A DNA stretch of 58,705 nucleotides, from the NCBI GenBank assembly GCA_913055745.1, contig CAJXJZ010000008.1, forward strand, positions 1-58,705. The letters are read 5' to 3'. This stretch comes from an uncultured bacterium. GTDB taxonomy: Bacteria; Hydrothermota; Hydrothermia; UBA1063; CAJXJZ01. The notes below the pieces were generated by a model that saw nothing but the letters and a program-made list of their open reading frames with translations, ran no database searches and was not told where the DNA came from. Each line of letters opens with the position of its first letter. Within the stretch, counting starts at the first letter, position 1. This document shows, piece by piece, positions 15,349-56,954 of the stretch. The translations under genes were made by a program, and so were the position numbers.

Positions 15349-16684
15349 ATTAAAACTCTATAAATACCCTGTATTTTTTGTTTTTCTTTCCTTCTGGTTT
15401 GGCATATTTGCCTCTTTATGGGGCATGTATTCGGTTGTGGGATTTGTTTTTGGTGCTATACTTCTAAGATACATTTTTGGGAGTGATTTTTTGTATACAT
15501 TCTTGTTTTTCATAGCAGGTTATCTTTATATGACAGCAATGCCTAAATATAAACAAAACTATGGCAGGGTAGTGGCAAAGTGTACTGTTATGAGAAAGGG
15601 TTTAGTAAAGGTAGATTCTATTATTGTAGGTGATAAAACCTTAAAAGGTAAAGAACTTAGAATATGGCATCTTTCAGGATTGGAACGCGGTGATATTATT
15701 TTGTCTATGATGAATGTCAAAAAACAAGGCTTTGCTTTAGTTGGAGACCCAATAAAGATAAAAAAGACTGGTTCAAAAGATGGTTTTATCTATAAAATGA
15801 ACAGATTTTTAAAAGAAAAGATAGAAGAACTCTCAGATAGGGAAGAGATTAGGGGATTTATATTGGGTGTTCTTATAGGGTATAGGGATTTTATCTCAAG
15901 AGATTTAATGGATGATTTTAAAAGAACATCAACCATGCATATACTTGCACTCTCCGGACTTCATATAGGCATACTCATATCGCTTTTTTATATGCTCTTT
16001 ATTCCACTGCTCGGTCATAGAAATAGGGCATATTTAATCTCCTTGAGTTTAGTGTTTTTATATATGGAAATTGTTGGTGTCACACCCTCTATCTTGAGGG
16101 CTTACATAGTATTTTTTGTTATGGTGATCACAAGTCTTTTAAGGAGAAAAACCTCTTTTTTCAATGTAATAGGGATTTCAGGTCTTTTTAGCCTTATTTT
16201 ATGGCCCTCTTGGGCATTTTCTTACAGTTTTATGCTAAGTTATCTTGCCATCTTTGGTCTTGTTTATTATAACCAGGTCCTGGGCATTAAAAACAAATAT
16301 CTTGGCGTTTTGATTGCATCTCTTGGTGCCATACTTTTTACGCTTCCTATAACCTCATATCTCTCAGGATACATTCCCTTATTGGGTTTCTTGTTTAATA
16401 TCGTTGTTATTCCACTTTTTACCATTTGTATGTGGCTCCTTTTTGGCGTATTAATAATTTATATTGCATTCCCACCTATGTCATCACTTTTGATAGGGTT
16501 TACAAACGCTATCCAGGGTACATTCCTTGAGGTAATACATGTATTTTCTAAAATTTCACCAGTTTTACATATAAAGATGCAGGAACCTTCTTCTTTTGTG
16601 TTTTACTACCTTGTAATACTTATAATTCCCGTTATAATTACTATGCTAAAAGAGCGCATGGGAGGTGTATATGAGAGCAGTTGA
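15335..16684 (+). CDS. comEC: ComEC/Rec2-type DNA uptake channel, short form
   Basis: An integral membrane protein of 449 residues. The N-terminus has two or three hydrophobic segments and a small soluble domain. The Competence domain follows with the signature MHILALSGLHIGILISLFY and about seven further segments. In transformable bacteria ComEC carries single-stranded DNA across the inner membrane. The C-terminal metallo-beta-lactamase-like domain of full-length ComEC (usually 700 residues or more) is absent, as in some other lineages. The start is GTG 15335 inside the preceding gene. No other competence gene is in the window. Confidence 0.85.
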   Translation: MLKDRLKLYKYPVFFVFLSFWFGIFASLWGMYSVVGFVFGAILLRYIFGSDFLYTFLFFIAGYLYMTAMPKYKQNYGRVVAKCTVMRKGLVKVDSIIVGDKTLKGKELRIWHLSGLERGDIILSMMNVKKQGFALVGDPIKIKKTGSKDGFIYKMNRFLKEKIEELSDREEIRGFILGVLIGYRDFISRDLMDDFKRTSTMHILALSGLHIGILISLFYMLFIPLLGHRNRAYLISLSLVFLYMEIVGVTPSILRAYIVFFVMVITSLLRRKTSFFNVIGISGLFSLILWPSWAFSYSFMLSYLAIFGLVYYNQVLGIKNKYLGVLIASLGAILFTLPITSYLSGYIPLLGFLFNIVVIPLFTICMWLLFGVLIIYIAFPPMSSLLIGFTNAIQGTFLEVIHVFSKISPVLHIKMQEPSSFVFYYLVILIIPVIITMLKERMGGVYESS

Positions 16685-27212: not shown

Positions 27213-28696
27213 TCTTCTTCTTTTGGTTTAAGTTGAGGGAATAGTATCACATCTCTAATTGAATGTGCATCTGTTAAAAGCATAATAATTCTATCAATGC
27301 CAAAACCAATCCCTGCAGCAGGTGGCATGCCGTATTCAAGTGCATTTAAAAAATCATAGTCTATCTCAGGTGGTATTTCCATATTACCCTTTTCTCTTTG
27401 TTTTGCCTGCTCCTGGAATCTTTTTCTTTGATCTTGTGGGTCATTGAGTTCGCTAAAGGCATTTGCTACTTCCATTCCAAGGACAAAGAGTTCAAAACGT
27501 TCTACTCTCTCTGGTTTTTCTCTGTGAACCTTTGCTAAGGGTGATATTTCTTTTGGATGGTCTATCACAAATGTTGGGTTTTTTATCTCATCTCCTACTA
27601 ATGCGTCAAAGAGTTTATCCACTAATCTCCATCTGTCCAGTGTGTTCCAACCCGCAAGTCCAATCTCTTTTGCTTTTTCTCTAATTGTTTCATCCTGCGC
27701 CGTTAGTATATTAATGCCCATTTTATTTGAAAGTTCATCAATATAACTTATTCTTTTAAATGGAGGAGTGAAATCTATAGCCTCTCCTTGATACTCAAGT
27801 TTATATGAGGAATAAAGTTCTTTTACCAGATGTGAAAACATATCCTCTGCAAGTTTCATCATATCATTATAGTCCCAATATGCAGCATATGCCTCAAGTG
27901 CTAAGAATTCAGGGTAATGAAGTCTATCAATACCCTCGTTTCTAAAGTCCCTTGAAAACTCATAAACCCTTTCATAACCACCTACCAAAAGCCTTTTAAG
28001 GTATAATTCATCGGATATTCTAAGATAGAGATCAGTTTCTAAGGCATTGGCATATGTTTTAAAGGGTTTCGCATAGGCACCACCGTATATGGGTTGAAGT
28101 ATGGGTGTTTCAAATTCAATGAAGCCACGATCATTTAAAAATTTTCTTATTTCATAGATTATTTTAGTTCTCTGTTTAAAGAGCCATCTTGCATCAAGGG
28201 AGCTTAGAAGGTGCAAATATCTTTGTCTGTACATAAGTTCTTTATCTTGTAGTCCGTGCCATTTCTCTGGGAGTTGCCGTAGGCCTTTTGAGAGGAAATA
28301 AAGTTCTTTAACCAGTATGGTGGGCTCGCCTGTTTTTGTCTTAAAGAGCGGTCCCTTTACTCCAATAAAATCGCCTATATCACAATATTTCTTGAAAAAT
28401 TTGAGTGCATCAAGGTCTTTTTCGTGTACCTTTGCCTTGTTTTTTTCAATGGCAATCTGGAGGTCTCCATACTCATCCCTGAGTGCTGCAAAAATGAGTT
28501 TTCCGAAAACCCTTTTTAAAACAATCCTCCCAGCAAAAGAAAACTCCTTATCAAGTAGTTTATCAGCATTTTCTTTAAGATAAGTTGAATTTGCTGTTTT
28601 TTCAAAACTGTATGGATAAGGCTGTATTCCAAGGTCTATAAGTTCTTTTATCTTTTCCTGTCTTATTTCAAATTCATCTTTTTGGGCATTACTCAT
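27209..28696 (-). CDS. lysS: Lysyl-tRNA synthetase, class II
   Basis: LysS charges tRNA(Lys). The N-terminal OB-fold anticodon domain ([27 protein letters not shown]) precedes the class II catalytic core. The core has motif 1 near IIYEIRKFL, motif 2 ([22 protein letters not shown]) and motif 3 ([13 protein letters not shown]). The 495 residues are full length. It overlaps the small coiled-coil gene by 8 nt and is followed by lolE, which ties translation and envelope genes into one operon. Confidence 0.97.
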
Positions 28697-29021
28697 TATT
28701 CTTCTTTTCTCCCTTTTTTTCTTTTTCTAAAACTTTTTTAAAGTCATTGAGTTTGTCCTCTAACTCTTTTACTTCCTCTGATAGTTTTTCAAGTTCTGGT
28801 GTTTTTTCAAATGCCTTTCCTTGTTTTAGCATTTCATAAGTTATGCTGCCCATCTTTGCGAGTTTTTCTGTTATCTTTTTCTCAATTTTCATTATTTCAA
28901 TCTTCACCGTTACCACTGCTGCCTGTTCCTGCGTTTTTTCTGCCGCCCCTTTGGCAATTTTAATCGCTTTTTCTGTTGCGTTCTCAAAATTTTCTTTTAT
29001 CTTTTCCCATATATCTGCCAT
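28689..29021 (-). CDS. Small coiled-coil protein
   Basis: I chose ATG 29021 because AGGAGG lies just upstream; the frame extends further to 29096 with no ribosome site. The 110 residues are almost entirely charged helix, with heptad-like segments around [18 protein letters not shown] and [28 protein letters not shown]. Similar short proteins occur in many bacteria without known function. It is the first gene of the lysS to flippase operon. A possible promoter TTGCTA/TATCAT (16-bp spacer) lies just upstream at about 29042-29069. Confidence 0.6.
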
Positions 29022-29150
29022 TTTATCCCTCCTGTTTGCTATTAAATGATAATGTTTAAAGGATGTATAGCAAAAGCAATATTCGTATTTCCTCAAAAGT
29101 AAATCTCCTGTTGTTATCTCTGTGCATGTTAAGGAAATAATACCCCATCA

Positions 29151-29172
29151 TGTAAATTATTTTGAGAACGCC
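29151..29172 (+). promoter_or_regulatory. Copy 1 of a 22-bp motif upstream of an exported-protein gene
   Basis: The motif ends 59 nt before ATG 29231. It matches 20 of 22 bases with 40404-40425, which ends exactly 59 nt before the patatin gene at 40484. Its core is ATTATTTTGAGAA followed by YGCC. It lies just upstream of the -35 box, where an activator would bind. Confidence 0.45.
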
Positions 29173-29178
29173 GAATAC

Positions 29179-29205
29179 TTGACAAAACACCCCCCCGTTT
29201 ATAAT
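29179..29205 (+). promoter_or_regulatory. Promoter with a C7 tract in the spacer
   Basis: TTGACA (29179-29184) and TATAAT (29200-29205) are both perfect but are 15 bp apart instead of 17. The spacer contains a run of seven C (29190-29196). TAATAT at 29202-29207 would give 17 bp with a weaker -10. A good AGGAGG ribosome site precedes ATG 29231. Confidence 0.6.
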
Positions 29206-29230
29206 ATACACATAAAAGGAGGTTTTTAAT

Positions 29231-31036
29231 ATGGGTATCTTCTTTACCACCTATCTTGCCATGGTTCTCACAGGCACATTCCCTTATGCCTATGAAGAGG
29301 TATCCTACCAGTATTATGCTGCAACAGAGGAGACCTCTTTATATGGTGATGAAGATGGTATATGGGTCCCATTGCCATTTACATTCCATTATGACAATCA
29401 TGATTTTGACTCTGTGTTTATCACAACAAATGGGTATATAACATTTACATCAAACCTTGTATCACCACAATCTCAAAACTTCCCAGACAGTGCCTTCCCA
29501 AATGGTGTTATTGCTCCACTTTGGAATGATTTTGTATTGTATTCTGGAGGGCATGTCAATACAGGCGTTTATGGCACATCTCCGAATAGGTATTTTGTTA
29601 TTGAATGGGATTCTATATATCTTTATGGTGGCAATCCAGATGAAAGATACAAGTTTGAGGTGGTATTGTATGAAAATGGCACAGATGGAGACTCTATCCT
29701 TGTTTCCTTTTATGGCATACCTTCATCGGATAGTGGTTTTGATGCAGTGTGTGGAATAGAGAGCCTTGATGGGAAGGGGGGTGTTGTATATTCATACAAT
29801 GGTGCACCCAATCCCATAACGCAAGGAAAGAGCGTTGTATTTCACAGGGTGCCTGTGCAAAACGACTGTGCAGCACTGGGTATACTTGAGCCATCCTCCA
29901 CACGGGGTACAGGGAAGGAGATTATTCCACTCGGTGCCATACAAAACTATACATCCGCGCAGGCAACAAGATTTGTGCACTTTATTGTAAAAGACCATTA
30001 CAACAACCTCTTATACCACGATTCAACAGAGATTTCCATTGCCGGAGATACCTTTTCCTTTGTATCCTTTTCTCCCCTTACCCTACCCAATGACACAGGG
30101 ATGCTCAAACTTTCTCTGTATCTTTCTCCAGAAGATGACTATCCACAAAATGACACAGCATGGGATACAACCTATGTCCTGAAAAACTGTGATACATTCC
30201 CACACTATATCCTATGGGATATGGGCACATGTGATCTCATAGATATTTCACAGAGTTATGATAAAAAGATTGCACCGGGCATGGATGGTGGTGCTGTGTG
30301 CTCTCTACCCTTTGTTTTCCCATTCTATGATACAACCTATACATCCGTGTATGTTGGTATAAATGGAGGGATCTCACTAAATAAAGACACGGTGGATTAT
30401 TACAACTATCCACTTTCTTCTATGGGGGATGAGGATTTTATAGGTGTATTCTGGGACAATTGGGCAGGAAGCAGTGATACATCATCCACAGACAGCGTAA
30501 TATATGTAAAATCCTTTGGTTCAGATTCTGTGGTGTTCATGTGGAAGGGGATGAAGAAAGAGTATTACACAGCAGGGCCTATAGACTTTGAGGCAGTGCT
30601 TTATCCGAGTGGTGATATAAGATGCCTTTACAACATTGCCATGAACTATTGGTATGAACAGTATGATGTAACAGTGGGCATACATTCAAGAGACAGTGAT
30701 TATGTTCAATACACATTCAATGAAGACCCATGGGTTCCAGATTGGTGGTATCCACATGGCATATACTTCAAAAAGCAAGAGACAGGTATTTATGAGAAGA
30801 AGGTGGAAAAAGAGGCTTTTGTGCCATTAAAATCCGGGATAAATACCCTCCTGTATGATATGAGAAGCCATATAGGCAAACTTGAGATTTACGATGCACA
30901 GGGTAGAAGAATGGGAAGGTATGTATTAAGAAAAAGAGGCATAATTTCATTAAGGCATTTAAGAAGTGGCGTATATTTTGCCGTATTAAGGACAGATGGA
31001 AAGATTTACAAAAAGAAGGTTATTGTAATAAAATAA
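29231..31036 (+). CDS. Large exported protein with two nidogen-like domains and a C-terminal sorting-like domain
   Basis: The function is not recognised. The 601 residues start with a hydrophobic stretch that fits a signal peptide. Two related domains (about 30-205 and 325-510) share the pattern PFTFHYDNHDFDSVFITTNGYITF versus PFVFPFYDTTYTSVYVGINGGISL, each with a following APLWNDF or GVFWDNW. The region between resembles a CARDB-type adhesion domain. The last 60 residues (LEIYDAQGRRMGRY...SGVYFAVLRTDGKIYKKKVIVIK) match the T9SS/FlgD-type C-terminal sorting fold. It is probably secreted and surface-attached. AGGAGG precedes ATG 29231. Confidence 0.7.
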   Translation: MGIFFTTYLAMVLTGTFPYAYEEVSYQYYAATEETSLYGDEDGIWVPLPFTFHYDNHDFDSVFITTNGYITFTSNLVSPQSQNFPDSAFPNGVIAPLWNDFVLYSGGHVNTGVYGTSPNRYFVIEWDSIYLYGGNPDERYKFEVVLYENGTDGDSILVSFYGIPSSDSGFDAVCGIESLDGKGGVVYSYNGAPNPITQGKSVVFHRVPVQNDCAALGILEPSSTRGTGKEIIPLGAIQNYTSAQATRFVHFIVKDHYNNLLYHDSTEISIAGDTFSFVSFSPLTLPNDTGMLKLSLYLSPEDDYPQNDTAWDTTYVLKNCDTFPHYILWDMGTCDLIDISQSYDKKIAPGMDGGAVCSLPFVFPFYDTTYTSVYVGINGGISLNKDTVDYYNYPLSSMGDEDFIGVFWDNWAGSSDTSSTDSVIYVKSFGSDSVVFMWKGMKKEYYTAGPIDFEAVLYPSGDIRCLYNIAMNYWYEQYDVTVGIHSRDSDYVQYTFNEDPWVPDWWYPHGIYFKKQETGIYEKKVEKEAFVPLKSGINTLLYDMRSHIGKLEIYDAQGRRMGRYVLRKRGIISLRHLRSGVYFAVLRTDGKIYKKKVIVIK

Positions 31037-31046
31037 GGAGGAAAAG

Positions 31047-31463
31047 ATGTGGATATTTGCGCTTTTTTTCATATCCCATACAGTAGATTTAAACTACAAT
31101 ATAAAATACCACACAGCAGACCTTAGAGAAGAGGACATTGTTGAGATGGAGGTAAAGAAGGTGGAGAATGAGGTGAATTACTACCTCTTTAATCCCACCA
31201 AAAACATGCCAGAATACTGCAAAAATATACTCGCGAGCATACAAGATAAGGGCGATATTAAAAATCTCTCTCCAATTAAGGGATTAAATCCTGTGCGATT
31301 AAAGGTAATAGGCATAAAGAAAACAAAAGAAGGGCAATACAGGGTAAGACTACAACTTCAGACACTTAGCAAAGAGGCAAACCAGAAGATAGGGAATAAT
31401 GAGATAATATTGGACATGAATATAGAGGGAGGGCATTATAATGGGGATATTAAAGCGCGTTAA
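31047..31463 (+). CDS. Small exported protein of unknown function
   Basis: The 138 residues have a short hydrophobic start (MWIFALFFISHTVDL) that may be a signal peptide, then a soluble domain of mixed strands and helices. No motif is recognised. GGAGGAAAAG gives a good ribosome site. The 3' end overlaps the metzincin lipoprotein gene by 23 nt, so the two are probably co-translated. Its place in the secreted cluster suggests a periplasmic or surface partner. Confidence 0.55.
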   Translation: MWIFALFFISHTVDLNYNIKYHTADLREEDIVEMEVKKVENEVNYYLFNPTKNMPEYCKNILASIQDKGDIKNLSPIKGLNPVRLKVIGIKKTKEGQYRVRLQLQTLSKEANQKIGNNEIILDMNIEGGHYNGDIKAR

Positions 31464-33324
31464 GTATGAAATATTTTTTATAGGCATTTTGGCAATTATG
31501 TTGGGAGGATGCGGAACAGAACACACACGGATCCTGACACTGGAATTACATGATGTAAAATATAATAGCAAAAAAAGTATGCCCTCTTGTGATGCCAGAA
31601 CTATCATAGAGTTTTTGAGAAAGTATAAGCCTTATGCCGGAAGATATGAAGTAAAGGTTACACTGTGGTTTAAAGGTATTGATGTGGATGAGGATTACTC
31701 TGGAACATTTGCTTATTTTGCCACATTCAATGGAGAAGAGGGGGAGTTTTTTGAGCATACCCAACGAAACATTCCTATGGAAATTTTAGTTCCTGGTAGA
31801 TACAAAGTGTATGCAGCAGTGGTTATGCTAAATTTAAAGTCACACAGACAAATTGCACTTCAAAGTCCAGATACCATTATTTATGTAAGTGGTGGGGGTG
31901 GTGGAGGTGGTGAACGCGGCTATTCCATCAACGCAATAACATGTGATTCGTGCATCACCATCAGCACGAATGAACAGACAGACATTCCTTACTCCTTACC
32001 CATATTGTTCAGAACAAAATATAACGGACAGGCACAAAATGGGATATCTGTGAAGTTCCATCTTTCTAATCCATCGGCAGGCTTTATCATAGAAGATCCG
32101 ATATCACATTCCTTTTTAAACCAGACAGGAATTGTTAAGCCAATCTTTCAACCATCTTCAAATTTTACAGGAGATGTAAACCTTATTGCAAGCATACAGG
32201 GTGATAGTGATACAGCAACGGACTCTGTTACAATCCATGTAATTCAAGATGAGGAAACAACTCAACTTTCTGAGTGTAACGGTCATTTCTACACCCATAG
32301 AAGAGCATCTTATCCTGATGGCCCTGAAATAAAAGGAGATGGGATTGAGGATTATAACGGAACTAAGGATGTGTGGGTTGAGATAGATACAGTGGCTGGC
32401 TGGAGAGGGAACTATACTGATGCCAATTTAGATATCATATTAAGTGTTGCCAAGTTTACCCTTGAACATGCAGTATGTGCAGATACTGGCTGGTCGCCGC
32501 AGGGACAGGGATCTACAGATTACTACGATACAGTGCCAAGTGGTATAACAGTGCATTTTAAGCCAATTGGTTTCATAGATGAAACCCAGTATGATACCCT
32601 CTCTTCCAAGTCTAATTTGGCAAAGGTCCTTTCTCTTTATAGAAATCCTAATTATAAGGATGCCATTCATGTAATTATAACATATCTCGGCACAGGGGAA
32701 CTTGCTCGTGACTTTGGAGCGGCTGTAAATTATTCTATTTTTAAAGGTGATAGTGCTGATATTGAGAACCATTTAAGTAGCAGAGATTCTCTATGGGCTA
32801 TACTCTATAAATCTCTTGCTCCTGAAAGAGAACAGTATTTGGATTCAACAGGTTGTGTCGTGTTCTATGGACGCGGCATTGACACGGTTCTTCCTCCATT
32901 GAGAGACAGTTTAGTAGGAATAACCCTTGCACATGAGATAGGTCATGCGCTTGGAATGACGCATGTATGCGATGCAACATTAGCAAAGGATAATAAAGCT
33001 GAGAATTGGTATGAGACAATGTTTAAAGTATTTTACGGAAATGTAATGTATCCTACTATCTATTACTATCCCCCCACTCTTGCTGAGGAGATGCTCGTTG
33101 CTGAAACCCATTTTCTCCTTCAGTCATTAGAGGATTCCAATGACTGGAGAGAGGCACAAGATACGAGTAATATTTCCAATACCCATTTTAAACCTATAAA
33201 AGGTCATCCAGGCCTGTGTACAAGGGATATACTGGGCATTGATAATGCAATCTGTGCATTAAAGGGGTATCTTATGGATGCACCCCCATGGAGTAATCAG
33301 AAAAAACAAGGAGGCACAAAATGA
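31441..33324 (+). CDS. Metzincin-type zinc metalloprotease lipoprotein
   Basis: The 627-residue protein has a signal peptide ending in the lipobox MLGGC, so it is lipid-anchored. A stretch of six Gly near residue 150 separates an N-terminal domain from a Big-like or filamin-like domain (about 170-275). The catalytic domain follows. AHEIGHALGMTH (H498, E499, H502, H508) is a complete HExxHxxGxxH metzincin zinc site, and NVMYPT about 35 residues later could be the Met-turn. The C-terminus (AICALKGYL) is simple. The substrate is unknown. The stop overlaps the next start by 4 nt. Confidence 0.75.
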   Translation: MGILKRVKYEIFFIGILAIMLGGCGTEHTRILTLELHDVKYNSKKSMPSCDARTIIEFLRKYKPYAGRYEVKVTLWFKGIDVDEDYSGTFAYFATFNGEEGEFFEHTQRNIPMEILVPGRYKVYAAVVMLNLKSHRQIALQSPDTIIYVSGGGGGGGERGYSINAITCDSCITISTNEQTDIPYSLPILFRTKYNGQAQNGISVKFHLSNPSAGFIIEDPISHSFLNQTGIVKPIFQPSSNFTGDVNLIASIQGDSDTATDSVTIHVIQDEETTQLSECNGHFYTHRRASYPDGPEIKGDGIEDYNGTKDVWVEIDTVAGWRGNYTDANLDIILSVAKFTLEHAVCADTGWSPQGQGSTDYYDTVPSGITVHFKPIGFIDETQYDTLSSKSNLAKVLSLYRNPNYKDAIHVIITYLGTGELARDFGAAVNYSIFKGDSADIENHLSSRDSLWAILYKSLAPEREQYLDSTGCVVFYGRGIDTVLPPLRDSLVGITLAHEIGHALGMTHVCDATLAKDNKAENWYETMFKVFYGNVMYPTIYYYPPTLAEEMLVAETHFLLQSLEDSNDWREAQDTSNISNTHFKPIKGHPGLCTRDILGIDNAICALKGYLMDAPPWSNQKKQGGTK

Positions 33325-33469
33325 ACCTTTTGTTATCTATCCTATTATGCACCCAATGGGTTGCTATTGACTCCCTCAGGGCAATAGTAAATAGGGAGAA
33401 GGCAAGTGAGTTCTGGATGGATAAGGATGGGAATATAAGGGTAGATGTAATAAGGAACAGGCGTCTTTA
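33260..33469 (+). repeat. Direct repeat copy A (5' part of duplicated gene plus upstream)
   Basis: This block is identical over 210 nt to 34725-34934, an offset of exactly 1465 nt. It covers the last 60 nt or so of the metzincin gene, the ribosome site and the first 50 codons of the next gene. Identity stops sharply after base 33469. Confidence 0.92.
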
Positions 33470-34703
33470 CCATTACATCATATCAGAGCAAGGCAACATA
33501 GACGAAATTAAAGGACCCGAAATACCTGATGGTACGACGCTATTTTATAATCATTGGTTTTATAATTTTGTCTTTAATAACCCCTTTGTTCAGTTATCCC
33601 CATTTGAGGATGGTATGGTTCTTTTATCCAAAAGGGGCGGTTTTTTGGACAGTAGAGCCGATTTTCCTATTTACGAGTACAAAGTGGATAGAAAAAATAG
33701 GAGGATAACATATAAAAGGACAATAATACTCCCGGGGAAAGAACTGTATGAGTTAAAATTGGGTACAGAATACATCACTTTTATTCCTGGTGTTCCTCTC
33801 ATAGCACATCTTGTATGGCTTGGTAAGGACTATGTCTTACTTCTTTTGGGTGGATATCATAAAAGTTATGTGCCCAAACCTCTTCCAAACGCATTTATTG
33901 AGCCAGAGTTACCCAGTGCTTCCAATGCATTATATTTAATCCTCTTCAAACTCACGAAGAAAAGAAAGAAGGTATTTAATGCAGAAATCTATAAAAAGAT
34001 TCCCATAACCGATTCAAAAGGAGAAGCATATTATGTTAAAGGTCGTGATAGGAAGAATAATGACCTCTATTATATAACCTTTAATCCCTTCATAGATTTA
34101 CTTGTAAGAATTCATTTAGCCAATACGATAAAGGGCATGAAGATAGAGAGGTTTCCAATAGGACAATACAAAGATATGCTAAAGGCAGATAAAAGCGTTT
34201 TAAAAGTGACAGACAAATACTTGCCCTATTTTGCTTCTTATTGCGATCTTCCTGTGCTCACACCATGCAATAGTACTGGCATATTAAATGTATCTAATGA
34301 TACTCTTGTGTTCTTTTTCCCATCTCCGAGGGGGCAGAGCTACATTGGTAGAGCAGTGCTTGAACATGGAAAATTAAAGACCATTGAGCCCATTACGAAT
34401 ATCAATGCAATGGAACTTGATTATAAAGATATCAAAGAAAAGTATAATCGTGTGGGTTTTAATTTCGTGAATCCGAAAGTAATAAATAAAGAGATTATCA
34501 AGCATAGATATATTAGATTATTACCGACTTCAGAAGTTCTCTTAAAAGCCATTCCAGTCCAAGATTTATACTTATATGTGTATTTGCTCACGCCCAACGG
34601 CACATTCTATCACAAAAAATTTAAACTTTTACATCTAACAGATAAATTAAGCGAGGAACTGTTACATCACCACAAAAATAAGATAAAGAAGAGAAAACCG
34701 TAG
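33321..34703 (+). CDS. Exported protein of unknown function, paralog A
   Basis: The 460-residue protein starts with a short signal-like stretch (MNLLLSILLCTQWVAI). It has no motif I recognise. The C-terminal block YLYVYLLTPNGTFYHKKFKLL suggests a beta-rich, possibly propeller-like fold. Its paralog at 34786 has the same length. The first 50 codons are identical at the DNA level. A central FLDSRADFPIYEY...RRITYKRTIILPGKE block is also very similar, while the regions between diverge strongly. GGAGG lies 8 nt before the ATG. It follows the metzincin gene with a 4-nt overlap. Confidence 0.6.
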   Translation: MNLLLSILLCTQWVAIDSLRAIVNREKASEFWMDKDGNIRVDVIRNRRLYHYIISEQGNIDEIKGPEIPDGTTLFYNHWFYNFVFNNPFVQLSPFEDGMVLLSKRGGFLDSRADFPIYEYKVDRKNRRITYKRTIILPGKELYELKLGTEYITFIPGVPLIAHLVWLGKDYVLLLLGGYHKSYVPKPLPNAFIEPELPSASNALYLILFKLTKKRKKVFNAEIYKKIPITDSKGEAYYVKGRDRKNNDLYYITFNPFIDLLVRIHLANTIKGMKIERFPIGQYKDMLKADKSVLKVTDKYLPYFASYCDLPVLTPCNSTGILNVSNDTLVFFFPSPRGQSYIGRAVLEHGKLKTIEPITNINAMELDYKDIKEKYNRVGFNFVNPKVINKEIIKHRYIRLLPTSEVLLKAIPVQDLYLYVYLLTPNGTFYHKKFKLLHLTDKLSEELLHHHKNKIKKRKP

Positions 34704-34785
34704 GAGGATGACATGCATAGAAAATAAAGGGGTATCTTATGGATGCACCCCCATGGAGTAATCAGAAAAAACAAGGAGGCACAAA
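34704..34785 (+). repeat. Junction of the tandem duplication
   Basis: This spacer reads as a fusion. Its left part repeats the ribosome site and first codons of the gene at 36187 (shared 22 nt ending in GGAGGATGACATG, then ATAGAAAAT). From 34725 it repeats the last part of the metzincin gene. Both remnants are non-functional here; the first encodes only MHRK before a stop. Confidence 0.85.
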
Positions 34786-34934
34786 ATGAACCTTTTGTTA
34801 TCTATCCTATTATGCACCCAATGGGTTGCTATTGACTCCCTCAGGGCAATAGTAAATAGGGAGAAGGCAAGTGAGTTCTGGATGGATAAGGATGGGAATA
34901 TAAGGGTAGATGTAATAAGGAACAGGCGTCTTTA
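34725..34934 (+). repeat. Direct repeat copy B
   Basis: Identical to 33260-33469 over 210 nt, including about 60 nt that are coding in copy A (the metzincin end) but non-coding here. Confidence 0.92.
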
Positions 34935-36168
34935 TCATTACATCATATCAGAGCATGGCAATATAGATGAGATTAAAGGACCTGAAGTACCTGACAATCT
35001 AACCTTCCTTCACAATCACGCTGACCCACTTTTCTGTATTCATATACCATTTCCACTCATTCAACTTGCTCCTTTGGGCAATGGAATAATTCTTTTGCAA
35101 AACAAACACCCCCATTTCACCACATTTTTAGATAGCAGAGCAGATTTTCCTATTTACGAGTACAGAGTGGATATAAAAAAGAGGAGAATAACATATAAAA
35201 GGACGATAATACTCCCGGGGAAGGAGATTTATGCATTAAAATTGGGCACACGATATGTTACAAGAATACCAGGGGAGTATCTTAGAGCCCGATTGGTTGG
35301 ATTGGGTAAGGATTATGCCCTACTCCTTTTGGCAGGACGCGATAAACTTGAACTTCCACAACCCCCACCAGATAGTATCACTACCATCTATGAGATGGGG
35401 ACATACATAAAACCCGCGGTATATTATCTAATTGTCCTTAAACTTCAAAAGGCAAGCAAGCATGCATTTAGGGGAGTTATTTACAAAAAGGTACCCATAA
35501 CACATGAACAGACGGAGGAAGAACTAAAAAAGTGTATGCACCGGATACAAACTTCTGACTATGTAGAGGGGCGTGATAAGAATGGGCATTTATACTATGT
35601 AACATTTACAACAAAGACCTCGTTGAGAAAATTTTCCAATCCACGCTATCCAAACACCACTTTTCTTTTTGATCGTAAACTTTTGCCTGGTTTTGCAGTA
35701 AAGGTAACCCTTACTGATAAACTAAAGGACCTTGAAATAGAGCGACACTCGATAGAAAAATACATGCAAAGTCCAGATACATCTATTGTAAACAAAATGA
35801 AGAATTATAATGAGCATTTTGTGCATTTGAATGGTTACTATTATTATGAAGGAAGGGGCCTTTTAAATGTAGTTGGAGATACTGTGGTATTCTATTATCA
35901 TCACTATATGGGGAAGATAGTATTTTGTAAAGGGCTATTTGGGTACAAGATGGTAAAGGTTGAGAAGATAAAAAGCGTAGAGCCTTTGGAAATGGATTAC
36001 AAAGACTTCAAGGCGTATAAAGATGTTGTAGAGATGAGATTTAATAGCACCCGCGCGTCAAAGGAGCATATAGATAAAGATTATTATTTATATCTACACT
36101 TTCTCACACCAGATGGGAGATTCTATCACAAGAAGTTTTTGATATTAAAATGGCAAAAATGTGATTAA
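34786..36168 (+). CDS. Exported protein of unknown function, paralog B
   Basis: The 460-residue tandem paralog of the gene at 33321. The first 50 codons are identical at the DNA level, then identity drops quickly with insertions and deletions around residues 70-105 and 190-290. The central FLDSRADFPIYEYRVDIKKRRITYKR block and the C-terminal YLYLHFLTPDGRFYHKKF block are conserved. The same signal-like start is present. It ends 18 nt before the large propeller gene. It probably makes a variant of the same surface or periplasmic protein. Confidence 0.6.
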   Translation: MNLLLSILLCTQWVAIDSLRAIVNREKASEFWMDKDGNIRVDVIRNRRLYHYIISEHGNIDEIKGPEVPDNLTFLHNHADPLFCIHIPFPLIQLAPLGNGIILLQNKHPHFTTFLDSRADFPIYEYRVDIKKRRITYKRTIILPGKEIYALKLGTRYVTRIPGEYLRARLVGLGKDYALLLLAGRDKLELPQPPPDSITTIYEMGTYIKPAVYYLIVLKLQKASKHAFRGVIYKKVPITHEQTEEELKKCMHRIQTSDYVEGRDKNGHLYYVTFTTKTSLRKFSNPRYPNTTFLFDRKLLPGFAVKVTLTDKLKDLEIERHSIEKYMQSPDTSIVNKMKNYNEHFVHLNGYYYYEGRGLLNVVGDTVVFYYHHYMGKIVFCKGLFGYKMVKVEKIKSVEPLEMDYKDFKAYKDVVEMRFNSTRASKEHIDKDYYLYLHFLTPDGRFYHKKFLILKWQKCD

Positions 36169-36186
36169 AAACCGTAGGAGGATGAC

Positions 36187-39100
36187 ATGTATAGAAGATT
36201 AGCAGGTTATATGATTATAATGCTTTTGCTCTCAAGTGCACTAATTGCCGATATAAGGCAGTTAAAGTTTTATGAGGGGAGTTTCACAGTGGATAATCCC
36301 TTGCCATGGGCAGGTGATGAGGAGGTAAACATAGACATACCCGAGTTATCTATTGGCACACAATCAGAGCAATTAAATGGTGTATTTTTATGCGATGTCA
36401 CAGGAATGGATGTGGAAAAAGATGATGGGGTTTACAGGATTGCCCTTGTTGACCCAACAGGCCCATCTCTCATGGTAATCTCCTACCCTGATTATAACAA
36501 TGATATAGGAGTGAGCATAGTTGAATATAGGGGTGGAGGGCTAAAAAGACCTACAAAATGCGTGTTTGGGCCTTCTAATAAGGTGTATGTTATTGATATA
36601 ATGGCTAAAGCGGTCTTTGTTTTTCAAGTAGAGGAGGATACTTTAAGAAAGGTTGGAGCATTTGGGTCTGGGGTAATAAAGGCACCCGTGGACATAGATT
36701 ACAGCCCACTGGATGGTGGTTTTATAGTCGTTTTAGATAGGAAGCAGAGAAGCCTTATTAAATTCTCCTTAAATGGGGATTATATAGGGAGAAGCGACCC
36801 TCAAAAGGTGCCCATATTTAATCCAGGTGGAATAGCCGTAGGAAAGAAGATGGTAAGGGATAGTTGGGGTGCGCTACGTACAGTTAGCACAGATGAGATA
36901 TACATAACAGAGAATGATTTTAAGAGGATTGTGCGTGTAAAGGGTGATTTTCTTTCCAATCCTGAGGTTCAGTATTTTTATCTTTCCAATCTTCCATCCT
37001 CTTCTTATCTGGGAGACATAGAGACAGACCAGTTTGGTGGATACTTCTTTGTTGATGAGTCAAATGGCGCAATTTATGCAGGCTATATGGGCAATGTGGA
37101 TGGGCCTTTTTTCAAAAATGGGGGTAATGCATTTAGGTATCCACGAGATATTGCCCTCTTAGGAGACCAATTATTTGTATCAGAATACATGAACAGACAA
37201 AGGGGTGTATCACGCTTTGCAAGGATTACCACCCTTGACACCTTTTTCCTTTATGGTCCAGATTCAATAATTCCAACAAAAGAGCAGGCATCCTTTGTAT
37301 TTTCCATCTCAGATTGGGGAAGGGTGAGTTATGAGGTAATAGATTCTATAACAGGAGAGGTAAAACTGAGCGAGTCGGAGATAGAATCCCCTGGTTATCA
37401 TTTCAGGGTATTTGATGGGGTTGGAAATGCGGGCACATTGCCAGATGGAGCATATAAATTAAGGATTATAGTAAGGAGTTTATTTGGTGAAAGGGATGGC
37501 ATAGACCCACCTGATACAGGTATGTTGTATGTAAGGGTTTATCAGAGTGAAAACTATCATGTTTTTTCAAAAGGTGCAACAGGTGCTACATTTTTCCATG
37601 ATGATGAGCATCTTATAACAAGGGTATTGGATACATCCTCTTTTGGGAACCTTTCCTCAAGTGTTGTGCTGTTTGAAGGATATAACCCTTCTATCACTTA
37701 CTATGAAGGGTCTTTGAGCAATGATGAAAGTTGCCTTCTTTCACCACACCTCTCTTCTAATGACAGCACATTGCTTTTTGCCCTCCCTCCTGGTGTTGGC
37801 ATTGTCAAAGACCCACTTTTCTTTTATGATACTACACAACTACAATTTGTGGCATCTGGCAAATACCCTGTAATCTCTCCATGCGGTGATAAAATCGCAT
37901 ATCTTAAAAATCACTATATCATAGTAAAAGATTTAAAAAGTGGCCATATTACAGAGAGTTTTCCTGCACCCTATGTAAGGTTTTTATCCTTTCACCCATA
38001 CCACAATGAGATATTATATGCCAAGGGTGGAGATCTGTTTGTGCACAAAAGTAGTAGAGATAGCCTTGTTTTTCATACAGATAGTGGTGAGATAGAGGAG
38101 GCACAGTATTTTCCAGATGGCATAAAGATATTATTGCTCATAAAAGAAGGTGAGGGAGAGAAGATTGCACTTTATGACCCTGTAAGAGAACATGTGATAA
38201 CCATTGAACAAATCAATGGGATAAGAGGTATCTCTGCCACATGGGATGGAAGGTTTATAACATACAGTCAAGGAAAATATGTTGTGGGCTTTCCAGCAGG
38301 AAAGAGGATAAAAGAGCCCAGAACGCTCCTGGCATCACCACTTGTGGGCAATGGGATGGAGGAGAAGATAAGGATAAGAGGGAGCGTAGAGAACAATACA
38401 TCACAGAACGCTGATACTGTTTATGCACATCTTGACCATTTTAAGGTGGAGTGGGGCTATGGAGAATACCCTTCAACATGCCGTTCAGATGGGGTCTTTT
38501 ATCCTCATGGACAGGGTGCTGTAAACAATGATATACTTGCAGAAGTGGTTCCCATGTTCAAAACAGATACTATATCCATAAAACTCACATCCTATAGCAC
38601 AGAGGGTGACTCTGCCATAAGGTATGTTTGGGGGTATTATAGCCCATTGAGGGTGAGATTATGGGGTAATTATAGCATTTTGGATACCATTGACTCTTAT
38701 TTTGATACCTTACATATTGCTATCTCTATGCTGGACACAAGTAATGTAAAGATGCAAAAGATAGAGATTTTAAGTGGAAAGAGGGTAGTGTATGTTATAA
38801 ATACATTCAAAGGGCCTGTGCATGATTCAGATTACACCTTTTTTGCCGATTATGATTTAAGGGATAGCACAGGAAGGTTTCTTGAAGGTGATACATACAG
38901 CGTGTTGGTCTATGCCACATGGCGTGAAGATACGGTTTTATCACTTAAAAAGACCTTTTATATAAAGCACATGCCCCTTATATCAGACAATATAAAGGCA
39001 ACTTATCCTCCACAGGCTAAGCACCTTGAAGTAATATACGCATACGAGAGAGATACAGCGTATATAGCCTATCTATCAAAATATGATGTATTCTTTGCAA

Positions 39101-40374
39101 AAACAACCCTTACAGAAATGCCTCAGAAAAGGGGTAATATAAAGTTTTTAGAGGATACAGCACAGGTAAAACCCCTTTCAAACCGCAGGATAAGAGACTA
39201 TTATCCTTCTATATTACTGGATTCTATTAAAAGAGATGTATTTGTTTTGTGGGGTGATGATGTAGGTGTGTTGCATCTTTGCAAAATAGGCATTGATAAC
39301 AATAATGTTAAGGAATACAAGGTAGAAGTTGGCGGGCATGTCATCTATACAGATATGGCAGAGAAGGATACCACCATTTACATCGTATATGGAGGCACTG
39401 TTTCCAAAGAGGCCTTTTACGGTGTTTTGTCATTTGAAAATGGTAGATTCAATACCATAAGAAAGTGGAACCTTATAAGTAAACTCTATCCACCTGATAT
39501 TCAACTTGTAGGTCAAAACCTATATCTTATGTTAAAAAATGCCAAAGACCTCTTTCTGTATCATATACCTTCATGGGAAAGAGTAAATATAACAAAGGAA
39601 TTAGAAGACACATTGCCCAATGATACCTTTGATATTGTAAATTATGCCATGGGCACGCGCTATATGCCGGGTGACGATACATTAGCCTTAGCATTTTTAT
39701 TGTCACGCAAAAACAAGGAAGGACTTGCTATTTCTCTGTTAAAAGATACAGCAATGAATACGGTGTTTGTCCAGAAGGTGGATTCAGAAGAAGATGCATA
39801 TACAGAGTGTGTTATTTCAGATGGATTTATGGATATTGTTGCCAGAGATTTTACAGGAGGACCATTTGAATATATGAGATGGGTGTTCTCATGGGATGAC
39901 TACAGTGGACAATGGTCTTTCCCAGGTGGAGACGATAACCTAACACATTCCATCTTCAGAAATGGAGTGTATTATGGAGGCACTTATTTTGATTATCTTA
40001 ATGGACCAAGCCCTGTCTCTTTGATAGGTATAAGGGAAACGATGCTAAAGGATAAAAAGGCAAGGCACTCACAGGCACTTGGCACATCCGGGAGGTTGAA
40101 ATACCATTTCTTTGGTGTATATCCCAATCCTGCGAGGGATAATGTGGTTTTTAGGTTTATATTACCAGAAGAGGGAAGGGTGAGACTGAGACTATATACG
40201 GTGGATGGAAGGTGCATAAAAGGATTGGATAAAAAGTTTAAGGCAGGCTTACATGAGATCGATCTAAACCGCATAGTTCCTGTCCAAAAAATGCCAGAAG
40301 GTGTGTATTTTTACAGTTTCTCTTACAAGGATAAAAGAAAAAGTGGTAAATTCGTGTTGATAAAACATAAATAG
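36187..40374 (+). CDS. Very large exported beta-propeller protein with T9SS-type C-terminal domain
   Basis: The 1395-residue protein has a signal peptide (MYRRLAGYMIIMLLLSSALIAD). Residues about 55-350 have an NHL-like propeller pattern (for example RPTKCVFGPSNKVYVIDI and RYPRDIALLGDQLFVSEYMN). Residues about 480-700 are like TolB/WD40 repeats (NDESCLLSPHLSSNDSTLLF, YPVISPCGDKIAYLKN). A middle region has Ig-like strands. The last 90 residues (FFGVYPNPARDNVVFRFILP...GVYFYSFSYKDKRKSGKFVLIKHK) are a T9SS type A sorting domain, including the VYPNP motif. It is probably secreted and attached to the surface. Role unknown; adhesion or binding is possible. Confidence 0.75.
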   Translation: MYRRLAGYMIIMLLLSSALIADIRQLKFYEGSFTVDNPLPWAGDEEVNIDIPELSIGTQSEQLNGVFLCDVTGMDVEKDDGVYRIALVDPTGPSLMVISYPDYNNDIGVSIVEYRGGGLKRPTKCVFGPSNKVYVIDIMAKAVFVFQVEEDTLRKVGAFGSGVIKAPVDIDYSPLDGGFIVVLDRKQRSLIKFSLNGDYIGRSDPQKVPIFNPGGIAVGKKMVRDSWGALRTVSTDEIYITENDFKRIVRVKGDFLSNPEVQYFYLSNLPSSSYLGDIETDQFGGYFFVDESNGAIYAGYMGNVDGPFFKNGGNAFRYPRDIALLGDQLFVSEYMNRQRGVSRFARITTLDTFFLYGPDSIIPTKEQASFVFSISDWGRVSYEVIDSITGEVKLSESEIESPGYHFRVFDGVGNAGTLPDGAYKLRIIVRSLFGERDGIDPPDTGMLYVRVYQSENYHVFSKGATGATFFHDDEHLITRVLDTSSFGNLSSSVVLFEGYNPSITYYEGSLSNDESCLLSPHLSSNDSTLLFALPPGVGIVKDPLFFYDTTQLQFVASGKYPVISPCGDKIAYLKNHYIIVKDLKSGHITESFPAPYVRFLSFHPYHNEILYAKGGDLFVHKSSRDSLVFHTDSGEIEEAQYFPDGIKILLLIKEGEGEKIALYDPVREHVITIEQINGIRGISATWDGRFITYSQGKYVVGFPAGKRIKEPRTLLASPLVGNGMEEKIRIRGSVENNTSQNADTVYAHLDHFKVEWGYGEYPSTCRSDGVFYPHGQGAVNNDILAEVVPMFKTDTISIKLTSYSTEGDSAIRYVWGYYSPLRVRLWGNYSILDTIDSYFDTLHIAISMLDTSNVKMQKIEILSGKRVVYVINTFKGPVHDSDYTFFADYDLRDSTGRFLEGDTYSVLVYATWREDTVLSLKKTFYIKHMPLISDNIKATYPPQAKHLEVIYAYERDTAYIAYLSKYDVFFAKTTLTEMPQKRGNIKFLEDTAQVKPLSNRRIRDYYPSILLDSIKRDVFVLWGDDVGVLHLCKIGIDNNNVKEYKVEVGGHVIYTDMAEKDTTIYIVYGGTVSKEAFYGVLSFENGRFNTIRKWNLISKLYPPDIQLVGQNLYLMLKNAKDLFLYHIPSWERVNITKELEDTLPNDTFDIVNYAMGTRYMPGDDTLALAFLLSRKNKEGLAISLLKDTAMNTVFVQKVDSEEDAYTECVISDGFMDIVARDFTGGPFEYMRWVFSWDDYSGQWSFPGGDDNLTHSIFRNGVYYGGTYFDYLNGPSPVSLIGIRETMLKDKKARHSQALGTSGRLKYHFFGVYPNPARDNVVFRFILPEEGRVRLRLYTVDGRCIKGLDKKFKAGLHEIDLNRIVPVQKMPEGVYFYSFSYKDKRKSGKFVLIKHK

Positions 40375-40403
40375 AGAGAGCGTATTTCAATAGTTTTTCG
40401 TTG

Positions 40404-40425
40404 TGTAGATTATTTTGAGAATGCC
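40404..40425 (+). promoter_or_regulatory. Copy 2 of the 22-bp upstream motif
   Basis: It matches 29151-29172 at 20 of 22 bases and ends 59 nt before ATG 40484, the same distance as copy 1. A possible promoter, TTCACA (40440-40445) and TATAAA (40464-40469) with an 18-bp spacer, lies between. Confidence 0.45.
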
Positions 40426-40483
40426 AAAGGATTTTCCTTTTCACATCATGTATTATATACTTATATAAAACAGGAAACCAAAT

Positions 40484-41416
40484 ATGAAGATTTGTCTTGC
40501 GCTTGGTGGTGGAGGAGCAAGAGGATATGCTCATATAGGCGTATTACGCGGATTTTTTGAGATGGGTATTAAAGACTTTTATGCAATTTCTGGAACCAGT
40601 GCTGGGGGTTTGATAGCAGGGCTTTTTGCTATGTATGAAGACCCTGATGCTATTTTTGAAAAGATAAAGTCCTTTAGAGATAAGCCATTGTTTAAAAGTT
40701 TGAGGTTCCATGAGAAATACAGTGAAAAGGACATGCTCAAAAGACTCTATAGCAATATAAGAGAGAAGGTTTTAGTAGCAAAGACACTTGTTTCAGAGTC
40801 TTTTATGGATGAGGAAACAAGGGATAAGGTTTTTGCCTATTTATATGGAGAGGATACCCTCATGGAACAGTATAACAAGAGGCTCAGGGTTATGGCAGCA
40901 GACCTTATAACTGGAAAGGATATTGCCTTTCGTGGTGGTAGCATGCACAAGGTCATGAAGGCAACAAGTGCTCTACCTGGTGCTTTGCCACCTGTCAAAC
41001 TTGGTGATATGCTTTTAGTTGATGGTGGAATAACGCATAATCTACCAATTTTGCCACTTTTACGGGATGAATGCGATATGATCATTGGTTCCAATGTTTC
41101 AAGGCCATTAAGAGAAAAACATGAATATAAAAACGCCGCTGAAATCCTTTTAAGGTGTGAATATATATCCTTACAAAGGCTTGATGATATTGAGAGCGCT
41201 TTTGCTGATGTGATTATAACCCCAGAACTTTCAGATATTGAATGGTATGAGTTTGACCGATTAGACGAGATAACAGAGAGGGGATATGAGGCATTTAAAA
41301 GGGCGAAACCAGAGTTGGAGAAGGCAATGGGCCTTTTTAATCGTATAAAGAAAAATTTGATACTAAAAAAGGAAATTATTCAAAAAATCACAGAGCACAT
41401 CGTGTATTTTCCATAA
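40484..41416 (+). CDS. Patatin-like phospholipase (RssA/NTE type)
   Basis: A 310-residue serine lipase of the patatin fold. The oxyanion motif is ALGGGGARGYAHIGVL, the nucleophile elbow is GTSAGG (near residue 38) and the catalytic Asp is in VDGGITHNLP. No signal peptide is seen, so it acts in the cytoplasm or at the inner membrane. It is a single-gene unit with ACAGGAA as a weak ribosome site. Its stop is only 2 nt from that of the convergent lipoprotein gene. Confidence 0.9.
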   Translation: MKICLALGGGGARGYAHIGVLRGFFEMGIKDFYAISGTSAGGLIAGLFAMYEDPDAIFEKIKSFRDKPLFKSLRFHEKYSEKDMLKRLYSNIREKVLVAKTLVSESFMDEETRDKVFAYLYGEDTLMEQYNKRLRVMAADLITGKDIAFRGGSMHKVMKATSALPGALPPVKLGDMLLVDGGITHNLPILPLLRDECDMIIGSNVSRPLREKHEYKNAAEILLRCEYISLQRLDDIESAFADVIITPELSDIEWYEFDRLDEITERGYEAFKRAKPELEKAMGLFNRIKKNLILKKEIIQKITEHIVYFP

Positions 41417-41418
41417 TT

Positions 41419-41847
41419 TTATTTAGAGGAGGGATTCTCTAAGGTAAAAAGAAGGCTCCTTTCAAATGTATTATTGAGAAAGATAATAACTTCCCAGTCC
41501 CCTTCAATGTGGTCTGGTATGTATGATGTTATGCATGTAGAAAACTCGTGCGGATATAAGGGAAGATTTATAGAATCTCTTGTATAACCATTTGGATCTA
41601 CAAAGTAAAAGTAAACTGTTTCTGTGTCTTGCACATTTTCCCAAAGGGTGTAAACACAAACGGTATCACCAAAGTAAAAATAATCGGTTATCTTTGCAGG
41701 ATTACCATCTACAAAATCAAGGGATAGGGTGGCATCCACAAGTATGGGACCTTCCTGTACATTGCTCTCTCCACCAATTACACCACTTTTCCTGGTGCAT
41801 GATGCAAAAAGTATCATAAAAGAAAGCATAAAAATTACTCTTTTCAC
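41419..41847 (-). CDS. Small lipoprotein of unknown function
   Basis: The 142 residues have a signal peptide ending in the lipobox LFASC, then a single beta-rich domain (DYFYFGDTVCVYTLWENVQDTETVYFYFVDPNGYTRD). The domain looks Ig-like and resembles C-terminal modules of other exported proteins. No family is recognised. It is the last gene of the serS operon, with a 4-nt overlap with the membrane protein upstream. Confidence 0.6.
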   Translation of the reverse strand: MKRVIFMLSFMILFASCTRKSGVIGGESNVQEGPILVDATLSLDFVDGNPAKITDYFYFGDTVCVYTLWENVQDTETVYFYFVDPNGYTRDSINLPLYPHEFSTCITSYIPDHIEGDWEVIIFLNNTFERSLLFTLENPSSK

Positions 41848-42473
41848 GCCAATCCCTCAAGATTATTTGTTTCTATGCCCTCAAGATTGGACACGAGTTT
41901 TTTGTACATAACAGCCTCTGCTAACATTGTTATGGGTATTGTGAAAATAAGTCCGACAAGTAATAAAAGGGCACCACCCACATTTATGAGAATAAGAACA
42001 ATGTCAATGCCGAATATGGTCCATTTATAGCCACGGGTTAACTCTTTTGAATAGTTCAAACTCTCTATTATGCCGAGTTTTTTATCAATAATAGCATATT
42101 TATAAAACTGAAACATGATGCCTAAAATTATACCAGGTACTATGAGTGCAAGCGTTCCGACGGCAACAATGAGTCCATACAGAATCCCTGCTATGAGAAA
42201 GTTTATATAAACATCATAGGCTGTAAACATGTCTGCGAGTTCAGGTTCCTTGCCGTTTAAATCGTCAAGAATGATTTTAATCACACCTGCTGATATATAT
42301 ATTTCTATAAGATCAGCGATTATATTGCCCCATGTTCCAAGTTTTTCGCATATTAAATAAACAGCAACCATAACAATAAAGAAGACGAGGACCATTGAGA
42401 TATAGAAGCCCATTCTACGCTTAAAATAGGCATATCCCTCATTTACGATTGTGCCAATACTTAAGTCCATCAT
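41844..42473 (-). CDS. Six-helix membrane protein (DUF975-like)
   Basis: The 209-residue protein has about six hydrophobic segments. It opens with a YFKRRMGFYISMVLVFF segment, and LALIVPGIILGIMFQFYKYAIIDKKLGIIESLNYSKELTRGYKWTIFGI follows. This looks like the DUF975 or related PF10110-type membrane domain, in which a GxxxS-x-ELTRG helix-loop is conserved. Its function is unknown, perhaps in membrane organisation. The start overlaps the upstream gene's stop (ATGA). Confidence 0.6.
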   Translation of the reverse strand: MMDLSIGTIVNEGYAYFKRRMGFYISMVLVFFIVMVAVYLICEKLGTWGNIIADLIEIYISAGVIKIILDDLNGKEPELADMFTAYDVYINFLIAGILYGLIVAVGTLALIVPGIILGIMFQFYKYAIIDKKLGIIESLNYSKELTRGYKWTIFGIDIVLILINVGGALLLLVGLIFTIPITMLAEAVMYKKLVSNLEGIETNNLEGLA

Positions 42474-55164: not shown

Positions 55165-55707
55165 CTACATATCATTCTCAAAAACGCAGTTATATTTTTC
55201 AATAAAGTATTTAAATGACCTGTTCTTTTGTTTTGCAGTTTCAATAGAAAAATTTTTTAGTATTTCTGACATGAAATCTATTCGTGAACCATATCTTTTA
55301 GGAATTAATCTATTAAATTGCTCTTTTGTAATATTATCTGTAGCATTATAAGGGTGGATTCCTAATTTTCGAGATGTTTCATCATCTAACCCTGCAAGAT
55401 ACCAACTTTCTATTTCCATTATCACCACGATTATTCTTTGTTCATCGATGTTTTTAAATTTGTTTTGTATTGTCCGCTTCTTATCAGTTACACACGGTGA
55501 ACTATTGATATCTGCTACAAAAATATATTCTGCATCCATAGATTTGATACTTTTAAGGAAATTAACAATTTTTTCTTTCTTTAGAGTTGCATAGCGTATC
55601 GTTCTTACAAAATTGTATTTTCTTTGTATCTTTGGTAATATAATCTTATCAAAGAATTTTCTATCATCCTCGCCTTCGACAAATATAAACAATCTTTTAT
55701 AACCCAT
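55165..55707 (-). CDS. TOPRIM-like protein paired with an ATPase (DUF4276/DUF4435-like)
   Basis: The 180-residue protein opens with LFIFVEGEDDRKFFD, the TOPRIM strand with its catalytic Glu. A VADINSS stretch is where the usual DxD would be, with only one Asp clearly placed. It continues with VVIMEIESWYLAGLD, a feature of DUF4276-type TOPRIM proteins. Such proteins pair with AAA ATPases in anti-phage modules (AbiL, PARIS and OLD/Gabija-like types). It starts 2 nt after the ATPase stop and is likely translationally coupled. The family assignment is by motif only. Confidence 0.65.
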   Translation of the reverse strand: MGYKRLFIFVEGEDDRKFFDKIILPKIQRKYNFVRTIRYATLKKEKIVNFLKSIKSMDAEYIFVADINSSPCVTDKKRTIQNKFKNIDEQRIIVVIMEIESWYLAGLDDETSRKLGIHPYNATDNITKEQFNRLIPKRYGSRIDFMSEILKNFSIETAKQKNRSFKYFIEKYNCVFENDM

Positions 55708-55709
55708 AA

Positions 55710-56954
55710 TTATAGTTCAAGTAAATTTTGCACATAAAGTTCTTCTATGCCTATATCATTCTGTAAAAATATCTTTACTTCTTCTTTATCAGCCGGTCTT
55801 GATACTAAAGAAAAACCCTCTTCATCACGCAAAACAAGTAAAATGTTATCCAAACCTGCATATCTTACCATTTCAGGATTATGGGTGGTAACAATAACTT
55901 GTTTCTTTTCTGAGACATCCTTCATCATATCTATTACCCTTGATATGAGATAAGGATGTATATTTCGTTCAGGTTCCTCAATAATAGTTATAGGCTTTCT
56001 CTCAAAATATAAGGCGATAATTAAAGCTGTTATGTTTATTGTCCCATCAGAAATCAGAGACGCTGGCAAATATTCCTTCTCGAAATATTTTTCTTGTAAT
56101 TTAAAAAGCAAAGACTTATCCGCAAATTTCTCTACATTAAGATTTTCTATGAAAGGTAAAAGATCTTTCACTAAATTAAGAAGCTTTCTTCTTTTCTCTT
56201 TGTTTTCCAAAGTATTTTTAAGAATAATGGATAAATTGCTTCCATCCTCTTCTAATTCGGCTTTCCCAGTAATAGGAGTGGCTTTTTTAGGCAACTTTGG
56301 ATCAAAATCGTATATAGAAATATCACTAAATAGTTCCGGCGGAGGCATAAAAAAGAAAGCTCTCTCAAGAAGAAGAGTAGTGGGAGAAAGTTTTTCTTCT
56401 CTTAAAAATGGTGGATATATATCCTTTTCTTCTATGGGCAGTGCTTTCGGCAGGTTGATCTTTATCTTACCATGCGCATCGCGCAATACATGTATTTCCC
56501 CTTCACCTATTTTTTCTTTTTCTATTATTTTCCCATTTTTTCTTTCAAGTTTAAAAAACTCACATTTATAAATTAAATTGTCTTTACTAATTTTAAATCC
56601 CAACCTTCTCTTGTAAAATTTTAATACAAATTCATATATAGTTTCATATATTTTTATTCCTATTAAGCTTTTTTTCTTATTTCTTGCAAAAGCAAATTTG
56701 TCGTCAGAAATAACCTTTAAGGTAAAGTCCTTTGAAGCACCAATATTTATGTTTCTGAGATATTCAACGCCTCCTTGCATTGATATCGCATTCTCTAAAC
56801 CATGCGTTGTTATATCCCTCAGAAATTTAAAAACCTGGATGAAATTGGATTTTCCTGAAGCATTAGCACCAATTAACACATTGAACTTACCGAGGTCTAC
56901 TTTCAATTCTTTGAAGCTTTTAAAGTTTGTTAATTCTATTCTCTTTATTCTCAT
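55710..56954 (-). CDS. AAA ATPase, ABC/RecF-like (AAA_15/21 type)
   Basis: The 414-residue protein has the RecF/ABC-type ATPase layout. Walker A is GANASGKSNF near residue 33. A signature-like region follows, the Walker B is TIIEEPERNIHP and the switch His is VTTHNPEM. Between them lies a long insert (about 80-290). The start LTNFKSFKELKVDLGKFNVLIG is diagnostic for the AAA_15/21 group. With the TOPRIM-like partner it probably forms a two-gene defence system. GGAGG lies 11 nt before ATG 56954, with its own promoter. Confidence 0.85.
   Translation of the reverse strand: MRIKRIELTNFKSFKELKVDLGKFNVLIGANASGKSNFIQVFKFLRDITTHGLENAISMQGGVEYLRNINIGASKDFTLKVISDDKFAFARNKKKSLIGIKIYETIYEFVLKFYKRRLGFKISKDNLIYKCEFFKLERKNGKIIEKEKIGEGEIHVLRDAHGKIKINLPKALPIEEKDIYPPFLREEKLSPTTLLLERAFFFMPPPELFSDISIYDFDPKLPKKATPITGKAELEEDGSNLSIILKNTLENKEKRRKLLNLVKDLLPFIENLNVEKFADKSLLFKLQEKYFEKEYLPASLISDGTINITALIIALYFERKPITIIEEPERNIHPYLISRVIDMMKDVSEKKQVIVTTHNPEMVRYAGLDNILLVLRDEEGFSLVSRPADKEEVKIFLQNDIGIEELYVQNLLEL

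Follow-up and report, generated by a model that had tools for sequence, protein, structure and literature searches.

How did two neighboring genes come to be identical at one end, spacer DNA included, and deeply diverged in the middle? We address this question for paralogs A and B, which lie in tandem in a 58,705-nucleotide stretch of DNA (the window). The window is contig 8 of the draft assembly of an uncultured bacterium of the phylum Hydrothermota (1.79 Mb, 63 contigs, 95% complete). The original prediction, made from the letters of the window, was that gene conversion or cassette exchange had shaped the pair, in a manner resembling systems that vary surface proteins.

Genes of the A/B locus

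The features of the locus are listed in Table 1. The start of A is overlapped by the stop of the upstream ORF (ATGA), and the A and B proteins are 46% identical across 491 alignment columns, 91 of which contain gaps. Pfam and NCBIfam searches with A and B returned nothing above cut-off, and neither has a relative in the PDB. An AlphaFold model built from the two sequences has a pLDDT of 40 and is unusable.

The upstream gene carries the protease-like motif AHEIGHALGMTH and an LGGC sequence, both read off the sequence; its matches to Reprolysin and M10 families are weak and under cut-off, and no relative was found among the relatives' genomes searched. The sorting domain of the downstream gene matches Por_Secre_tail above cut-off, and the genome encodes proteins of the C25 peptidase family, a kind present in type IX secretion systems. 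From these neighboring genes alone, we would guess that A and B are secreted or located at the surface. A relative of the downstream gene, 38 to 40% identical and split, lies near a contig end in a related genome (G002), with its upstream neighbors out of view. This relative (L026, G002:C355, 3367-7562, minus strand) consists of three overlapping ORFs, which reflect either assembly frameshifts or a decaying gene.

Table 1. Coordinates of features at the A/B locus within the window
Feature	Position	Strand	Description
Accessory interval	29097-40483		lysS side to patatin gene, 11.4 kb; holds the whole cluster; from comparison with sister species
Upstream gene	31441-33324	+	putative lipoprotein; metzincin-like HExxHxxGxxH motif; tail duplicated
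Paralog A	33321-34703	+	460 aa; intact ORF; no family match
Paralog B	34786-36168	+	460 aa; intact ORF; no family match
Downstream gene	36187-40374	+	1395 aa; type IX secretion C-terminal sorting domain
Repeat left end, copy 1	33260-33469	+	last 61 nt of protease-like gene and A codons 1-49
Repeat left end, copy 2	34725-34934	+	61-nt protease-tail relic (spacer) and B codons 1-49
Transition zone	A 33470-33529; B 34935-34994	+	7 differences in 60 nt, mostly synonymous; protein conserved
First divergent body segment	A 33530-33641; B 34995-35124	+	codons 71-107; pS 0.82, pN 0.44; indels
Second conserved block	A 33642-33743; B 35125-35226	+	codons 108-141 (FLDSRADFPIYEY...RRITYKRTIILPGKE); pS 0.40, pN 0.04
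Main divergent body	A 33744-34693; B 35227-36167	+	pS 0.71-0.77, pN 0.23-0.41; many indels
Right-end relic behind A	34694-34725	+	Shine-Dalgarno and first codons of downstream gene; 30/32 identical to native right end
Native right end	36168-36199	+	spacer plus opening codons of the 1395-aa gene

Divergence between A and B changes in steps

The left end of the repeat is exact over 210 nt and takes in nonfunctional spacer, as had been predicted. Codons 1 to 49 show zero differences between A and B, at 30 synonymous sites. At codon 50 synonymous differences jump from 0 of 30 sites to 6 of 12, with the protein conserved up to codon 70; over codons 50 to 70, about half of the synonymous sites have changed (pS 0.49, pN 0.04). 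The steepest change-point is at 33530, and beyond it local nucleotide identity is mostly 0.4 to 0.7. The predicted abrupt divergence with indels after the repeat is borne out for the indels (the 91 gap columns); its edge has two steps, synonymous identity stopping at 33470 and protein identity near 33530. The predicted second shared block is present and is about 90% identical at the nucleotide level. Because nonsynonymous change stays well under the saturated synonymous change, the divergence of A and B looks old, not hypermutated.

As a yardstick, we compared four core genes in the window with those of two sister species (8 gene comparisons). The control orthologs have pS values of 0.70 to 0.83 and are equally diverged to the A/B body (pS 0.77). 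The longest exact run in these comparisons is 14 to 29 nt, even at 90% protein identity, versus 210 nt for A and B. Among 49-codon control windows compared across sister species (n = 3548), the lowest pS is 0.42, versus 0 for codons 1 to 49 of A and B, and the probability of seeing no synonymous change there at the rate of codons 142 to 260 is 7e-19. Protein constraint cannot account for 210 nt of identity, because exact runs in the controls reach just 29 nt. The body is much older than the left end, a gap that protein constraint does not explain. For the second block, a pS as low as observed occurs in 0.12% of equally conserved control windows, the block having been chosen after viewing the data. 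Its likeness is mainly due to protein constraint, with an older conversion within it suggested.

Relics at both ends of the repeat unit

The 61-nt relic ahead of B is untranslated in the protease frame, since a stop in that frame precedes it. The relic behind A, which the original prediction did not mention, terminates at the duplication junction, where GAAAAT meets AAAGGGG (join sequence GAAAATAAAGGGG). The junction may contain microhomology, of 2 to 4 nt at most, ATTA being found in both parents. Relics at both ends show that the duplicated unit began in the coding tail of the protease-like gene and stopped within the opening codons of the downstream gene.

The relics are nearly intact (61/61 and 30/32 positions) and the body is saturated, so the junction appears to be much more recent than the two bodies; the right relic gives an independent date for this junction. 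The difference between the left relic (0 of 61 spacer sites changed) and the right relic (2 of 32) has a Fisher p of 0.12, and comparing the right relic with all 210 sites of the left repeat gives p = 0.017; the difference is not decisive. Together, the two relics before B form a possible 17-codon frame at 34706-34760 (MTCIENKGVSYGCTPME) with a Shine-Dalgarno-like GGAGG ahead. This frame may affect translation of B or may have no meaning.

Recombination and the probable origin of the pair

A tract lacking synonymous and spacer divergence thus sits inside otherwise saturated paralogs, and its edge, the synonymous step between codons 49 and 50, is sharp and has no cause in protein conservation. 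Recombination is well supported, the tandem junction and left end being young and the bodies old. The original prediction held that point mutation alone would not suffice, and we agree: identical ends with saturated middles call for recombination. Its proposal of gene conversion or cassette exchange likewise stands, in that some recombination event is needed, be it conversion of an end or the replacement or joining of bodies.

In our preferred reading, to which we give about an even chance, the duplication or joining was recent and involved copies whose bodies were already divergent; we rank it above an old duplication followed by repeated end conversion. The tandem pair would have been made recently, one breakpoint falling within the protease-like gene's tail and the other within the opening codons of the downstream gene. 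The bodies would already have been old and divergent when they became neighbors. One body of a fresh duplicate could have been exchanged for that of a divergent homolog through homologous recombination, with the duplicate's own ends as homology arms. Alternatively, two chromosomes with divergent alleles could have undergone unequal recombination that left both alleles in tandem. Ordinary homologous recombination would be enough for either route, and dedicated machinery would be superfluous. That events took this order, and that one body is of foreign or allelic origin, is what we infer. Three points weigh against the preferred reading: searches of the genome itself, the phylum genomes, GTDB, viral contigs, and plasmids found no donor or second allele; the right relic is just 32 nt long; and selection for the translation start of B may preserve the left relic. 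In addition, the intermediate synonymous divergence of codons 50 to 70 and 108 to 141 suggests several events of differing age, which repeated conversion fits equally well.

The strongest competitor, possible but less probable, starts from an old tandem duplication, after which the two bodies diverged where they stood. Conversion between A and B would then have homogenized the right spacer, the second block at an earlier time, and the left end recently. The gradient of synonymous change along the gene (0, 0.8, saturated, and 0.56) would correspond to conversion tracts of different age, and the second block has a pS below 99.9% of equally conserved control windows. However, this history calls for no fewer than two or three separate conversions, and two of these must have extended to both edges of the duplicated unit. 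A tract homogenized between duplicates by housekeeping recombination is known from Salmonella tufA and tufB (PMC5485169), but these genes are nearly identical over their full length, whereas A and B are so at one end only.

It is unlikely that the assembly strung together two haplotypes of one gene from a mixed population. The draft is in 63 contigs and was judged from the assembled sequence, and a strain bubble would have common flanks and divergent middles, as observed. Against such an artefact, the join lies between sequences with few shared bases, and two substitutions separate the relic from the native right end; a graph-based assembly would presumably have needed real reads spanning such a join.

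No dedicated variation system was found

A system that varies surface proteins is not supported: the genome yielded neither another paralog nor a silent fragment, no match to reverse transcriptase was found, and nothing shows that the proteins lie at the surface. The search for more paralogs or silent fragments of the divergent middle, proposed with the original prediction, was run and recovered A and B only. No third copy or silent fragment was found in the 95%-complete genome by DNA search or by protein search (E up to 10 for B), and the window has no further long direct repeats outside 29 to 41 kb. A profile over 147 phylum genomes found no relative of A or B in the 146 further genomes, and none appeared among plasmids or viral contigs or in two scans of GTDB made with different peptides; the scans need exact short peptides and may miss distant relatives. 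The prediction was to fall if no further paralogs existed and both copies proved fixed, with old divergence, in relatives; the first half of this is what we found, and no relative searched carried the genes.

Hallmarks of known systems were looked for and not found, and we consider it very unlikely that conversion from silent copies supplies the body with new sequence or that a reverse-transcribing diversity generator mutates it. No reservoir of silent partial copies was found in the 95%-complete genome, nor any match to reverse transcriptase PF00078, which the same search detected in control genomes. Diversity-generating retroelements produce adenine-directed substitutions without indels; in A and B, adenine is changed at 0.38 to 0.41 and C/G at 0.53 to 0.60, and gap columns are frequent. 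No G-quadruplex motif lies within 28000-42000.

The idea draws its appeal from the Helicobacter pylori outer-membrane paralogs homA/homB and babA/babB, which have conserved ends, a polymorphic middle, and intragenomic conversion of ends (PMC2795765). A and B share with them the conserved ends, the differing middle, and signs of conversion at an end. In the H. pylori pairs, however, exchange is established across many strains with defined alleles and a surface location, whereas A and B are two tandem copies in one genome with far deeper divergence of the body.

Selection alone, through coding constraint and conserved protein ends, is the least credible explanation for ends kept alike after an old duplication: the N terminus and second block are conserved in protein (pN 0 to 0.04), but the absence of change at 30 synonymous and 61 spacer sites contradicts it, controls at about 90% protein identity have no exact run above 29 nt, and an Rfam search over the repeat ends gave no element, only a chance match.

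The cluster lies in an accessory interval

Three congeneric species differ at the interval between lysS and the patatin gene. In G003 (L028, 9761-10147) the small gene before lysS adjoins the patatin gene and the interval is empty, in G001 (L027, 10421-15325) a radical-SAM/ABC-transporter cluster fills it, and in the genome studied here it holds 11.4 kb of secreted-protein genes. The cluster is accessory in this genus. The same core flanks thus enclose differing content among the three species compared, one of them empty, as in hotspots of gene turnover between core genes; such hotspots lacking mobile elements are common and are attributed to recombination in the flanking core genes (PMC5635113).

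The window also contains a gene with a ComEC/Competence domain (15872-16639). Because the interval is variable among sister species and this ComEC homolog is present, DNA import is plausible. Elsewhere in the window, at 55165-56954 on the minus strand, a 414-aa AAA-ATPase-like ORF is followed by a 180-aa ORF that is DUF4276/TOPRIM-like by eye, at a G+C content of about 0.30; the two look like an anti-phage defense pair.

Implications

As it stands, the locus records one or a few ordinary recombination events, of a known type, and a dedicated system for switching surface proteins is not supported. It offers a clean natural case, from a little-studied bacterial lineage, of old bodies flanked by young ends, with untranslated relics on either side of the duplicated unit providing the dating. 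There is a slim chance that strains swap the bodies of secreted proteins in the lysS-patatin interval by way of the fixed ends; A and B would then belong to a larger pool carried by the population and not by one genome. If strains showed such a pool of exchangeable bodies, the locus would represent a population-level route for varying secreted proteins.
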